From Candidatus Peribacteria bacterium (lineage in GTDB: Bacteria > Patescibacteria > JAEDAM01 > Absconditabacterales > Absconditicoccaceae), in assembly GCA_031261265.1 (NCBI GenBank), contig JAISKI010000021.1, positions 1-20,134 on the forward strand: a DNA stretch of 20,134 nt, given 5' to 3'. Positions 12,443 to 16,762 of this stretch are shown one piece after another. The position numbers and the translations under genes were made by a program. Each line of letters starts with the position of its first letter. Positions within the stretch are counted from its first letter, which is position 1. Under the pieces are notes generated by a model. The model searched no databases and had not been told where the DNA came from. It saw only the letters and a program-made list of their open reading frames with translations.

Positions 12443-15400
12443 TTACCCGATCACAATATTCATAATCTTTCCTGGGACATAAATGACTTTCTTTACTTCG
12501 CCACTCGCTAAGTAAGAAGCCATTTTTTCTTGTTCTTTTATCAAGTTCATCACTTCTTCCTGGCTCGCCGTTGGGCTGACTTCTACGGTTCCACGGACTT
12601 TCCCGTTAAACTGAATAGCAAGCTGAACGGTATCGGAAGTCAGCTTTTTTTCGTCCCATTTTGGTCGTTTTGCCTTAGTGAAGATAGAAAATTCATTTCC
12701 AAGTAAAGACCAAAATTCCTCCGCCAAATGCGGTGCGAACGGTGCGAGCAGGATGATAAAGGTTTCAAAAAGCTGAGCAGGGATTTTGTCCAGTTCGGTC
12801 AATTTGTTCACCAAAATCATAAACTGCGAAATGGTCGTGTTGAAACGGAACGTGTCAATGTCTTCGGTGGTTTTCTTGATGGTTTGATGGAGCAGGGTTT
12901 CAATTTCTTTCGGTATTTCAACCGTGTTCGTATCGACCTTGTCCCACAATGCTATCACTTTATCCAAAAACTTTTTCACTCCCTTTAAACCGTTCGTATT
13001 CCACGAGATGAACTGGTCAAAGGGTCCCATAAACATTTCATAGGTCCTGAACGCGTCCGCTCCATATTCTGCAATCACCTCATCAGGATTGACCACATTC
13101 CCTCGTCTTTTCGACATTTTACGACCATCTTCTGCCATTATCAGTCAGACTTTTTCATATTTTTGAAAGGGTTCTTGTTTGCTCACTATCCCAATATCAT
13201 AGAGGAATTTCTGCCGAAATCTCGCGTAAATCATATGCCTCGTCACGTGTTCAGCACCTCCGACATACACATCGACATTTCCCCGATAGTGCTCGTTCTC
13301 TTTGCTGACCAACGCCTTATCATTCTGCGGGTCCATATACCTCAGTCGGTACCAACTCGACCCAGCCCAACCCGGCATTGTGTTGCTCTCTCTCTTCGCC
13401 TCATTTCAGCAAACAGGGCATTTCGTCTTCATCCACCGATGTACATCATCCAGCGGTCCTTCCTCTCTTCCCGTGGGTTCGTAATTTTCCACATCAGGCA
13501 AAAGAAGAGGTAAATCTGACTTTGGAAGAGGGTTTACCTGTGCGATATCGACCAACTCAAATTTTCGTCCGACCAGTCCATTCTGCTCAATTTTCTCCAC
13601 ATATCCTTCTACAAAATTCCAGTCTTCCTTAATTTGTTCCATGGTTTTTATGTTTTTAAATTGCTCCTTATCGGTATATACTTTCTCTAATTCTGGTTCA
13701 TTAAAGAGTTCTTCAAAGCTCTTCCATAGATAACATTCTGTTATTTTTCAATAAATCGCTTCTCCTGTTTCTTTATTTACCATTTTCAAAATGTCCCCTG
13801 TTTTCACATTCCCGAAGTATTTTTCTGGTTCCTCAGGATTTAAGGCTCTGGTTTCTATCGTTTTATGTTTCTTTTTGATTCCATTCCAGGTTGCCTGATT
13901 GTAAAAGTTTATCGTATGCAAATGACTCTCTCAAACCTTTACTCCTCCGATATGGTTTTCTTCCAACCATTTCTGCATCTTCACCGTCGCTTCATCACTT
14001 GTCAGTCCACTAAATGCTCCAGAATCTATCAATATTCCCTTTCCCGTAGTTGCTCCCTTTCCAGCAAGGTAGTTTTTGAGTTGTTGCAATGCGTCTACAA
14101 CATCAGCAGTACTGTTGGGGTTTTCAATGTCTGTAAATTCTTCGATTCGTTCATCAATGGTTTTCCTTGTAAGTGGCAGGTCTTCTTCGTATTCGGTAAG
14201 ATTTCTCTCTTTAGTTTTTTCGGACTTTAACCTAAATAAGAGGATTTTTTCATTATTTTCTCTCCAGACATTTTTTCCACCTCCTGCAAAATAAAAGGAT
14301 TGGCAACATCCAATTTCTCCTTGAAATTCTACATCATAAAGTCCTGTTTCTTCCTCTATTTCACGAACTGTCCCTTCCAAGACGGTTTCTCCCTTTTCAA
14401 TTCCCCCTCCAATCATTCGGTGTTTTCGTGTTGAGCCAACATTGGTTCTTTGTGTCATCAACAGTTTATCATCTTCATCTAAAATGAAAGCATATCCAGA
14501 CAACTTTGATTCTGCTCCTTCGTGTCTGGTTCAGAAACTTTTCCCAATCACATACTTAATGGGAATATCATATTTTTTTGCAAACTCAAAATCCCTCTCA
14601 TCGTGGGCGGGAATACCCATAATGGCGGTATCTCCCGTGAGAGCAGTATCCACAAAAAGTGGTACTTTTTCTTTGCTAAAAGGATTAATAGCATAAGATG
14701 ATATTGATTGAATTACATTAGCTAATGGATGGGTCGGTGCTATTCTTACAAATGTCACCCCAAACACCGCATCAATTCTTGTAGTGGAAACTTTTATGGT
14801 ATCTGTACTTTCTGCTATCTGCATTTCAAACCAAGTCTCTGAAAGTCCTCCCAATGCTTTCTCTCAGCAGTGTTTACAGAATACCACAGGAAACGGCTCT
14901 CCCCAATACCTCTGACGAGAAAAGACCCAATCCTGAATTTTATAATTGCTCTTCTCTCCACCCAGTCAGCGTTCAGTTAGTCGTTTCTGCATTGCTTTGA
15001 TTGCTTCGTCACTCGTCAGTCCAGAAAATTCTCAGGAATTTACAAGTACTCCTTTATCACAATAGGCACTATCTCCATTGATGTGTCTTTCAAAGATAAA
15101 TTTATGGTTAGCTAAATTGATAGTGTTTTCCATTTCTTCTTTTGTAAGCCATACTACGTCAAAAAGATTTTTTTCAGCTTCCTCTATGGGGTCTTGTTCT
15201 CCATCTGCAAGCTCAATGAAAACATTTTTTTGAAATACTGTTCTATTTACTCCTTTATGTTTTGCACAAAATCTATCCACATTCTCAAATAAAATCTGCT
15301 TTGCTTCTTTGAAATTTTTATATCAGGTTTCTTCTTGTACTTCTCTTTTTGCTGCCTCTATTGCCTCTTCTCCTTCTTCAATTCCTCCTGTAATTAGATC

Positions 15401-16762
15401 TTTTCGGTTTTGTTCTTTCCATTTGAGACAAATATATTTTTCTTCATTTCGATGTTTTACTAATACAATAACTCCCTTTCTTGTTGTTTCTTCCAATCCT
15501 TCTTGAGGAGGTGTTTGTTCATCATAATAATTCCAAGCGATGGAAGTTTTAATTGGAATATCATACTTTTTCGCAAATTCAAAATCCCTCTCATCGTGGG
15601 CGGGTACTGCCATTACTACTCCCGTTCCATAATTCGCAAGAACATAATCTCCAATAAAAATCGGAACTTCTTCGTTGTTGAATGGATTGATGGCGTAAGC
15701 TCCCGTGAATTGTCCGGTTTTCTCCTTTTGCAATTCTGTCCTTTCCAGCTGGGTTTTGTATTTTGCTTGTTCTTTGTATTTTGCTACGGCTTCTTTGTAT
15801 TCATCGGTGGTGATTTGGTCTACCAGTGCGTGTTCTGGTGCCATTACCACAAAGGACATTCAGAAGACGGTATCGATACGGGTGGTAAAGACTTCAAACG
15901 ACAAAACGGCTTCGCCGTTCGGACGGGTTCAAGACCCGTCCCTACATTCGTTCGTGGTGTTCGGACGGTTTAACGAACCGTCCCTACGCGATACATTCAT
16001 TTGAAATTGCGTCCCACTTGATTTCCCAATCCGATTTCTCTCTAATTCTTTCATACTCTCGTCCCAATCCAATCCGTCCAATCCCTCTAAAAGTCTGTCT
16101 GCATATTTCGTTATCCTCAACACCCATTGTCTCATTGGTCTTTGTTCTACTTCACTTCCACATCTCTCACATCTTCCCTCTTCCAAATCCTCATTCGCCA
16201 GTCCTGTTTTGCAGTGCGGACATCGATTGATGGGCTTGTAGTCAATGTAGGCAAGCCTGACTTCGTCAGGGTTTTCTCATTGGTATTCACTTATCGGGCG
16301 AGCCTGCTTTTTCTCCTCATCGTAGTAATGCGTGTACAACTGCAAAAATATCCACTGTGTTCGTTTGTAATAGTCAGGGTCAGCGGTGCTGAAACTTCTC
16401 TCCCAATCATAGGAAAATCACATATCTTTGAGCTGTCTTTTGAAATTATCAATATTTTGTTGCGATGCAATTTGTGGTTTCATTTTGTGGTCAATCGCAT
16501 ATTGTTCGATTCCCAGTCCAAAAGTATCAAATCCCATTGAACGCAAAACAGAAAATTTTTCCAGCATTTTCTTTCTGGCAATAACATCAGTAGCGACATA
16601 GCCTTTCGGGTGTCCTACATGCAATCCTGCTCCGCTCGGATACGGAAACATATCCAACACATAAAATTTCTCTTTATTGGGGTCTTCGCTGACTTTGTAA
16701 ATCTGCTCAGAAGTCCGTTTCTCCTGCCGTTTTTTCTCCATTTCGTTGAAATCAATCTGCAT
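12443..16762 (-). CDS. leuS: Giant leucyl-tRNA synthetase with duplicated editing core, two Nudix domains and an ASCH-like domain
   Basis: 1439 codons, no TAA or TAG inside, 13 UGA codons read as Gly. In order: FPYPSGAGLHVGH (HIGH motif, 39-51); GFSYDW (115-120, Gly by UGA); CPHC and CERC zinc-type pairs; in-frame repeat (about 256-286); editing core 1 (TTRIDTVFG to HDERD, 287-424); Nudix 1 (425-568); KGVLVNSGEFSGL and SRQRYWGEPFP (615-625); editing core 2 (637-748); Nudix 2 (749-905); KGILIDSGAFSGL (908-920); ASCH-like (944-1072); LPDVENYEPTG; SSWYRLRY; KMSKR (1215-1219); anticodon-binding and C-terminal domains ending YVPGKIMNIVIG. Usual LeuRS is about 800-900 residues. All catalytic signatures remain, so it should charge tRNA-Leu. 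The start ATG 16762 has a short purine run (AAGGA) upstream. Confidence 0.96.
13547..13933 (-). other. ASCH-like domain embedded in LeuRS
   Basis: LeuRS residues about 944-1072. HKTIETRALN (966-975) matches the ASCH pattern G-x-K-x-x-E-x-R with Lys in place of the first Gly. It is followed by VKTGDILKM (the GD turn after a conserved hydrophobic strand), YGKITECYLWKSFEELF, VYTDKEQF and GLVGRKFELV, the order expected of ASCH domains. ASCH domains adopt a PUA-like barrel; known members include YqfB, an N4-acetylcytidine amidohydrolase, and predicted RNA binders. Two UGA glycines (13931, 13748) lie in it. It sits exactly between editing core 2 and the LPDVENYEPTG segment, where ordinary LeuRS goes directly from the post-RQRYWGEP region. 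Confidence 0.72.
14048..14518 (-). other. Nudix domain 2 embedded in LeuRS
   Basis: LeuRS residues about 749-905. It begins SGYAFILDEDDKLLMTQRT and has a complete Nudix box at 786-808, GGIEKGE followed by REIEEETGL. Metal-binding glutamates are all present, so catalysis is plausible. It splits editing core 2 between DIPIKYVIG and KGILIDSG, the same junction used by Nudix 1 in core 1. It is only distantly similar to Nudix 1 outside the box (my reading, not an alignment score). Confidence 0.9.
14519..14854 (-). repeat. Second (duplicate) copy of the LeuRS CP1 editing core
   Basis: LeuRS residues 637-748. It repeats core 1 in order: WFEMQI, TTRIDAVFG, YAINPFSKEKVPLF and PAHDERDFEFAKKYDIPIK, the last identical to core 1 at protein level and nearly identical at DNA level (about 14562-14625 against 15552-15613). 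Differences from core 1 are functional: RIDT becomes RIDA (the Thr252 position of E. coli LeuRS), and the GTGVVMAV strand becomes GDTAIMGI. The first half is shorter and more diverged. Confidence 0.88.
15059..15490 (-). other. Nudix domain 1 embedded in LeuRS
   Basis: LeuRS residues about 425-568. RKGVIVLVKHRNEEKYICLKW is typical of a Nudix first strand pair, and the box at 459-481 (GGIEEGE, then REVQEETGY with Gly by UGA at 15323) is complete. NVFIELADGEQ and FDVVWLTKEEM match later strands. It separates DIPIKTSI from KGVLVNSGEFSGL, which are only about 20-30 residues apart in ordinary LeuRS. Confidence 0.9.
15491..15904 (-). repeat. First copy of the LeuRS CP1 editing core
   Basis: LeuRS residues about 287-424, the canonical editing core: VFTTRIDTVFGMSF with the threonine-rich motif, AINPFNNEEVPIF, the GTGVVMAVPAHDERD active-site strand and EFAKKYDIPIK. 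All residues I would expect for post-transfer editing of mischarged tRNA-Leu are present, including the Thr of RIDT and the Asp of HDERD. Confidence 0.9.
15905..15983. repeat. Triple-hairpin palindromic element, in frame inside leuS
   Basis: Three perfect hairpins in a row: AACGGC-TTC-GCCGTT (15905-15919), GGACGGGT-TCAAG-ACCCGTCC (15921-15941) and GGACGGTT-TAACG-AACCGTCC (15963-15983). It encodes about 30 residues (NRPNTTNECRDGSGTRPNGE) between the zinc-type region and editing core 1, where LeuRS normally has only a short strand. The middle hairpin recurs at 370-390. A TGA in the loop of the middle hairpin is read as Gly. Confidence 0.82.

Follow-up and report, generated by a model that had tools for sequence, protein, structure and literature searches.

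Why should a leucyl-tRNA synthetase (LeuRS) carry two Nudix domains, each embedded in an editing core? The question is raised by contig JAISKI010000021.1 of a Candidatus Peribacteria bacterium (assembly GCA_031261265.1), whose 20,134 nucleotides, analysed as a whole, are referred to as the window. The gene in question lies on its minus strand (12443-16762) and, as discussed below, the encoded protein is a LeuRS with two intact-box Nudix domains, one in a complete and one in a degenerate editing core, which would cleave dinucleoside polyphosphates, such as the diadenosine tetraphosphate (Ap4A) that the synthetase itself would make; this reading of their role is tentative and is given somewhat less than an even chance. 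Translation with genetic code table 25 yielded a single uninterrupted frame of 1439 codons, confirming what a previous sequence-only reading had reported; under table 11, the same frame is interrupted by 13 in-frame TGA codons. Nine of the TGA sites were checked in an alignment (A4) with 56 relatives: Gly is found in 56/56 of them at residue 301, in 47/56 at residue 480, which falls within the first Nudix box, and in 37/56 at residue 577; at residue 599 it is present in just 5/56, so that this site is not mostly Gly, and the other five sites correspond to columns gapped in most rows. The protein scored 930.4 bits with the whole-protein model of bacterial LeuRS (TIGR00396, leuS_bact; curated cut-off 548.4), both motifs of the synthetic site are present, i.e., HVGH (HIGH) and KMSKR (KMSKS), and Pfam recognized the editing domain in three stretches and NUDIX in two (protein E 1.6e-23, which passes the cut-off).

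The two Nudix domains occupy the same point of the two cores. Each of them is preceded by PAHDERDFEFAKKYDIPIK and followed by KG(V/I)L(V/I)(N/D)SG, and each contains the whole GX5EX7REUXEEXGU box; hence, the earlier claim that a Nudix domain whose catalytic box is intact splits both connective peptide 1 (CP1) cores at one position was borne out. In the alignment with the LeuRS of T. thermophilus (1h3n), the first insert replaces residues 363-374. The AlphaFold model gave the block of the first Nudix domain a predicted local distance difference test (pLDDT) score of 91-98, whereas the second one was poorly modelled (29-75), and its fold assignment therefore comes from sequence. Nudix-named models were the top matches of the whole-protein model in a viral structure library, the aligned region not being given, and the comparison with solved chains returned LeuRS for all the top 50, which has no bearing on the fold of the second Nudix domain or of residues 943-1078.

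The two editing cores are not equivalent. The first one possesses the T-rich region (TTRIDT), the GTG loop (NYGTG) and the universal Asp (HDERD). The second one retains HDERD, but its T-rich region has lost the last threonine (TTRIDA), no GTG is found in the place of the loop, and the distance between these two elements is about 36 residues shorter than in the first core. According to a passage of PMC7229842, the T-rich region and the GTG loop are essential for LeuRS editing. The second core of another LeuRS, P0096, has likewise lost both the T-rich motif and the GTG loop and has kept an intact Nudix box. Since in both two-core LeuRS the second editing site is devoid of these motifs and the Nudix box is intact, the Nudix domain looks like the part that would have been retained, as the two proteins point to, even though two cases are few. 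As for the DNA of the two HDERD segments, 57/66 nucleotides are identical; this likeness does not point to a recent conversion between them, since the segment of L007 matches that of the first core just as closely (58/66). The features of the gene are reported in the following table.

Features of the LeuRS gene; positions are those of the window.
Feature	Residues	Position	Strand	Basis
LeuRS reading frame, 1439 codons		12443..16762	(-)	table 25, 13 TGA as Gly; TIGR00396 leuS_bact match
HVGH (HIGH motif, synthetic site)	48-51	16610..16621	(-)	sequence
Segment containing the first part of editing core 1: T-rich TTRIDT, GTG loop, HDERD	241-408	15539..16042	(-)	
Two tandem in-frame palindromic repeats, directly N-terminal of editing core 1	about 258-284	15911..15990	(-)	repeat D4, sequence
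Nudix domain 1	409-568	15059..15538	(-)	Pfam NUDIX; block pLDDT 91-98; Nudix-named viral-library models
Nudix box 1 GGIEEGEEAIEAAKREVQEETGY; EETG has its Gly encoded by TGA	459-481	15320..15388	(-)	
Editing core 1, second part KGVLVNSGEFSGL...	569-602	14957..15058	(-)	
Degenerate first part of editing core 2: TTRIDA, LTGDTAIMG for the GTG loop, HDERD kept	641-742	14537..14842	(-)	
Nudix domain 2, Absconditabacteria type	743-905	14048..14536	(-)	Pfam NUDIX, best stretch 758-852; L002 53%; tree
Nudix box 2 GGIEKGETVLEGTVREIEEETGL	786-808	14339..14407	(-)	
Editing core 2, second part KGILIDSGAFSGL...	906-942	13937..14047	(-)	
Further inserted domain, second insertion site	943-1078	13529..13936	(-)	no Pfam family above cut-off
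KMSKR (KMSKS motif)	1215-1219	13106..13120	(-)	alignment to 1h3n

How unusual is this architecture? The sequence-only reading knew of no such LeuRS, a statement that holds in part. In the open-access literature, with bioRxiv and most subscription journals lying outside the coverage, no description of a Nudix domain in LeuRS was recognized; however, LeuRS sequences with one Nudix domain at this site are common in Patescibacteria. In Patescibacteria, the phylum of the window, a contiguous editing-Nudix-editing module was found in 37 of the 286 sampled genomes (about one in eight, four further partial matches being excluded). In the class of L001, 19 of 154 genomes have a match, contiguous in 17, and a TGA codon falls within the match in 17/17. 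In the phylum of L065, a Clostridia-labelled genome, the module is present in 1/199 genomes, which is L065 itself, and a match was found in 10/114 genomes of its order, seven of these matches lying in a LeuRS-length frame. Nudix-bearing LeuRS were also observed in L016, L021, L022, L065 and L081-L083, i.e., in Clostridia-labelled genomes or genomes of the L065 order, and may be the outcome of either gene transfer or mislabelled bins. Two editing cores were disclosed in 2 of the 438 collected LeuRS (319 + 119), only P0001 and P0096; this share is no census because the 438 LeuRS were gathered by likeness to the two-core proteins themselves (best 120 matches of each protein search). What is rare is the combination with another editing core, a single Nudix domain at this loop being not unique.

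Most inserts at this site retain the catalytic motif, RExxEEx[G/W] being present in 240/254, a near form in 11 and neither in three; in this count, the W found at the box Gly in some public proteins was taken as a misread TGA and counted as G. Among the matches listed, P0055, P0061 and other proteins of 'ena' source have Trp at the conserved Gly of the box, which suggests that public protein predictions rendered TGA as Trp in bacteria with a recoded TGA. Additional Nudix domains are located N-terminal of the editing core in many LeuRS (59 counted). Serine hydrolase, HAD, Ham1 and DUF559 domains are also inserted in LeuRS among the matches listed; as an example, P0133, P0134, P0180, P0025 and L013, all LeuRS of related bacteria, harbor Ham1, DUF559 or serine hydrolase domains, or multiple Nudix domains, at various positions of the synthetase. 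Seven LeuRS with a Nudix domain in the editing core and a Saccharibacteria or Saccharimonadales name (P0221, P0222, P0236, P0251, P0262, P0280 and P0302) were also observed among the matches listed, and their cultured relatives could be used for tests.

The origin of the Nudix domains was analysed with quick trees without bootstrap, those of Nudix domains (75 rows) and LeuRS bodies (76 rows) being built on 77 proteins chosen from 214. For the comparison with stand-alone Nudix proteins, 40 of 92 matches were taken, one, located on the LeuRS contig of L003, was dropped, and 35 of the remaining 39 were retained (four had no clear box); with the window's own, they amount to 36 rows from 12 genomes and the window, whose stand-alone status was judged by position and not one by one. 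The tree sets the 44 LeuRS-borne Nudix domains apart, as one group, from the 36 stand-alone ones with a support of 93, a value below the mark of 95 and obtained on LeuRS rows that had been found by likeness to these very domains. The window encodes a stand-alone Nudix protein (785-1180, minus strand; PF00293, E 9.9e-18), which clusters with the stand-alone rows and is nearest to L134.

The analysis of the trees also revealed a conflict between the LeuRS-borne Nudix domains and the bodies that carry them. The bodies of 17 Absconditabacteria-type proteins, among them that of the Peribacteria-labelled L007, form one clade (support 100), whereas a single clade for the 15 inserts of 14 Absconditabacteria-type proteins was rejected (approximately unbiased test, p-AU 8e-43). 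The first Nudix domain of the window LeuRS clusters with inserts of other lineages (support 96; closest P0013, 61% identity), the second one with the Absconditabacteria type (90; closest L002, 53%), and the second editing core with Absconditabacteria-type cores (82). The two Nudix domains do differ from each other, as the earlier reading had stated, and their sisterhood was rejected (p-AU 0.002). Both origins that it had proposed, i.e., duplication followed by divergence, or two insertions, appear too simple: the Nudix domains borne by LeuRS seem to make up a single lineage, and the second core, which clusters with Absconditabacteria-type ones, carries a Nudix domain of that type. The placement of the first Nudix domain within the Absconditabacteria type was not rejected (p-AU 0.20), so that its arrival from another lineage is likely, not proven. 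Taken together, the LeuRS-borne grouping, the conflict with the LeuRS tree and the non-sister position of the two domains make it look as if one LeuRS-bound Nudix lineage had been exchanged between synthetases as a cassette, two sub-branches of which would meet in the window gene. The GC content at third codon positions (GC3) is 0.46 in the body, but drops to 0.18 in the first Nudix domain and to 0.28-0.29 in the second core and its Nudix domain; its value as a proof of recent gain is weakened because the insert has a lower GC3 also in 9/12 single-Nudix LeuRS used as a control.

What might these domains cleave? LeuRS-borne Nudix domains would be pyrophosphohydrolases. The X-loop counts cover 250/254 inserts, or 80 representatives (<50% identity), and 31/36 stand-alone rows. 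A tyrosine at +16 to +18, counted C-terminally from the box, is present in 51/80 inserts versus 2/31 stand-alone proteins (Fisher p 2.4e-8), the second Nudix domain of the window having it at +16, and a loose signature, FYxxxK..NR, in 62/80 versus 2/31. In a passage of PMC5389931, the X-loop tyrosine is associated with Ap(n)A activity in Nudix proteins; moreover, a portion of PMC4856261 states that Ap4A can be made by most aminoacyl-tRNA synthetases of animal cells, the usual route being the passage of AMP from acyl-AMP to ATP. The Ap4A hydrolases 1f3y and 3i7u are two of the seven nearest solved chains. The X-loop tyrosine might thus hint, weakly and indirectly, at the removal of Ap4A by the LeuRS Nudix domains.

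Several observations weigh against Ap4A removal by a dedicated Nudix lineage, besides the two limits given above for the LeuRS-borne grouping. The X-loop tyrosine is missing from the first Nudix domain of the window, where +17 is Phe and +18 is Cys, and the nearest solved chains are mixed in function. The NCBIfam RppH models remained below their cut-off (at most 25.9 bits with single domains and 43.9 with the whole protein, versus at least 116), and no Ap4A-named model occurs among the NCBIfam matches listed. ApaH was above the cut-off in 0/74 genomes and HIT in 73/74, alike in 37 genomes with the contiguous LeuRS Nudix module and in 37 hand-picked from those without a contiguous match, so that no replacement of another Ap4A hydrolase is visible. 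Lastly, the loop also holds other enzymes, a serine hydrolase following the Nudix domain in P0180, and HAD, Ham1 and DUF559 domains occur at other LeuRS sites; such a variety of inserts fits a merely permissive scaffold.

This last point leads to a serious rival, although on the whole a rather unlikely one, according to which these are generic house-cleaning Nudix enzymes lodged in a permissive loop, which cleave damaged or excess nucleotides and for which LeuRS is merely an abundant carrier, without any coupling to its catalysis. The unrelated enzyme domains listed above in LeuRS of the same bacteria, the diversity and exchange of the Nudix sub-families at this site, and the presence of MutT and other house-cleaners among the nearest solved relatives speak for this explanation; against it stand the clustering of LeuRS-borne domains apart from the 36 stand-alone proteins, unlike that of repeated random captures, and the FYxxxK..NR signature, frequent in the former and mostly lacking in the latter.

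A less serious rival, and an unlikely one, is an extra editing step, in which the Nudix domain would cooperate with the editing site by removing misactivated amino acids (e.g., as noncognate aminoacyl-adenylates) or by positioning mischarged tRNA. The insert does lie within the editing domain, about 15 residues C-terminal of HDERD, and TTRxDT is retained in 313/317 first cores of the collected LeuRS. Its insertion point presumably corresponds to that of I4ae in human LeuRS, which would speak for this idea. A portion of PMC7229842 reports that I4ae lends Lys464 to the editing pocket. The copied module, however, has lost its editing motifs and retained its Nudix box, and 249/286 sampled genomes have no contiguous module. 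In addition, aminoacyl-adenylates are devoid of a diphosphate, which is the bond type cleaved by Nudix enzymes. Self-protection appears much less probable still: the inserts would disarm nucleotide-like LeuRS inhibitors (adenylate mimics of the agrocin-84 type, boron-AMP adducts), which would explain their rapid exchange between lineages, and both the existence of structures of LeuRS bound to agrocin TM84 and to benzoxaboroles and, in a portion of PMC7157772, the resistance that HIT hydrolases confer to microcin C, which targets aspartyl-tRNA synthetase (AspRS), provide parallels; yet nothing in the window points to an inhibitor, a producer or a resistance. An assembly chimera of two LeuRS genes, to which the GC3 drops might be ascribed, is highly improbable given the single frame, the TGA codons that flank the two inserts and also lie within them (residue 480 in the first and 744 in the second, the latter without aligned relatives), the existence of another two-core LeuRS, P0096, and the lower insert GC3 of most single-Nudix relatives.

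Returning to Ap4A cleavage by the synthetase's own domains, the following scenario can be depicted. A Nudix domain would have been captured once in a loop of the editing domain and then exchanged between LeuRS genes, the well-conserved flanks possibly acting as recombination arms; subsequently, a Nudix-bearing editing module would have been copied into the second insertion site of the window LeuRS. Both Nudix sites would be catalytic, their substrate would be an Ap(n)A-type by-product of the synthetase itself, and the second core would survive as a carrier for its Nudix domain. In a more general form, it is possible, although we regard it with considerable reserve, that a dedicated Patescibacteria Nudix lineage in the LeuRS editing domain constitutes a second quality-control site, destroying Ap4A-type or adenylate by-products in place, as a swappable cassette that accumulates in some enzymes, the decayed core of the window LeuRS being kept only as a carrier. 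If so, the synthesis and the removal of a by-product would be coupled in one protein; if the domains do not act on Ap4A or adenylates, LeuRS would serve, in small genomes, as a general site for the insertion of enzymes. Across a large bacterial group, an essential and conserved translation enzyme seems to have come to carry a second catalytic domain, whose exchange between lineages appears to be independent of the LeuRS body. In either case, the inserts should be excluded when LeuRS trees of this group are built.

Other features of the window deserve mention. The domain at residues 943-1078 is of a type found in some single-core LeuRS too. It is perhaps ASCH-like: a single ASCH-named structural match was obtained, for the whole-protein model, and four such domains gave no match with ASCH (PF04266) up to E 1. 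The LeuRS gene also contains tandem in-frame palindromic repeats (GTAGGGACGG...CCGTCC type), which contribute approximately residues 258-284 to the protein; the third copy is located at 366-394 (region 360-397), and one palindrome pattern had no exact match among the 103 loci searched. These repeats presumably resemble the Rickettsia palindromic elements located inside genes. The RNase HII encoded at 8613-9377 (plus strand) matches Pfam in two stretches, and its middle may be another in-frame insertion.

The comparison with known systems places the window LeuRS among bacterial enzymes (TIGR00396; T. thermophilus 1h3n), with which it shares HIGH, KMSKS, the CP1 editing domain and the anticodon domain, six stretches matching 1h3n, and to which it adds, at the second insertion site, another editing core bearing a Nudix domain of its own, together with one more domain. 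The single-Nudix LeuRS of Patescibacteria and of some Clostridia-labelled genomes (e.g., L002, P0075, L005, L016) have the Nudix domain at the same loop, and in some of them the second site is occupied by a domain resembling residues 943-1078, but they possess one editing core only. P0096 shares the two cores, each with a Nudix domain, and the degeneration of the second one; however, its second core directly follows the first, a third Nudix domain is present, and the second module resembles that of Saccharibacteria LeuRS. Human and archaeal LeuRS also have an insertion in the CP1 editing domain, I4ae (described in a portion of PMC7229842), which is structural and, unlike the Nudix inserts, is not an enzyme domain. 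The isoleucyl-tRNA synthetase (IleRS) with an acetyltransferase domain (NF040702, going by the family name) is likewise a class I synthetase to which an enzyme domain has been added, but both the synthetase and the enzyme are different ones, and no Nudix domain is involved. Finally, the Nudix Ap(n)A hydrolases of lupin (1f3y), Aquifex (3i7u) and human (NUDT2) have the Nudix box in common with both window domains and the X-loop tyrosine with the second one and 51 of the 80 representative inserts, the first one lacking it; these hydrolases are stand-alone enzymes, whereas the window Nudix domains lie inside a LeuRS.

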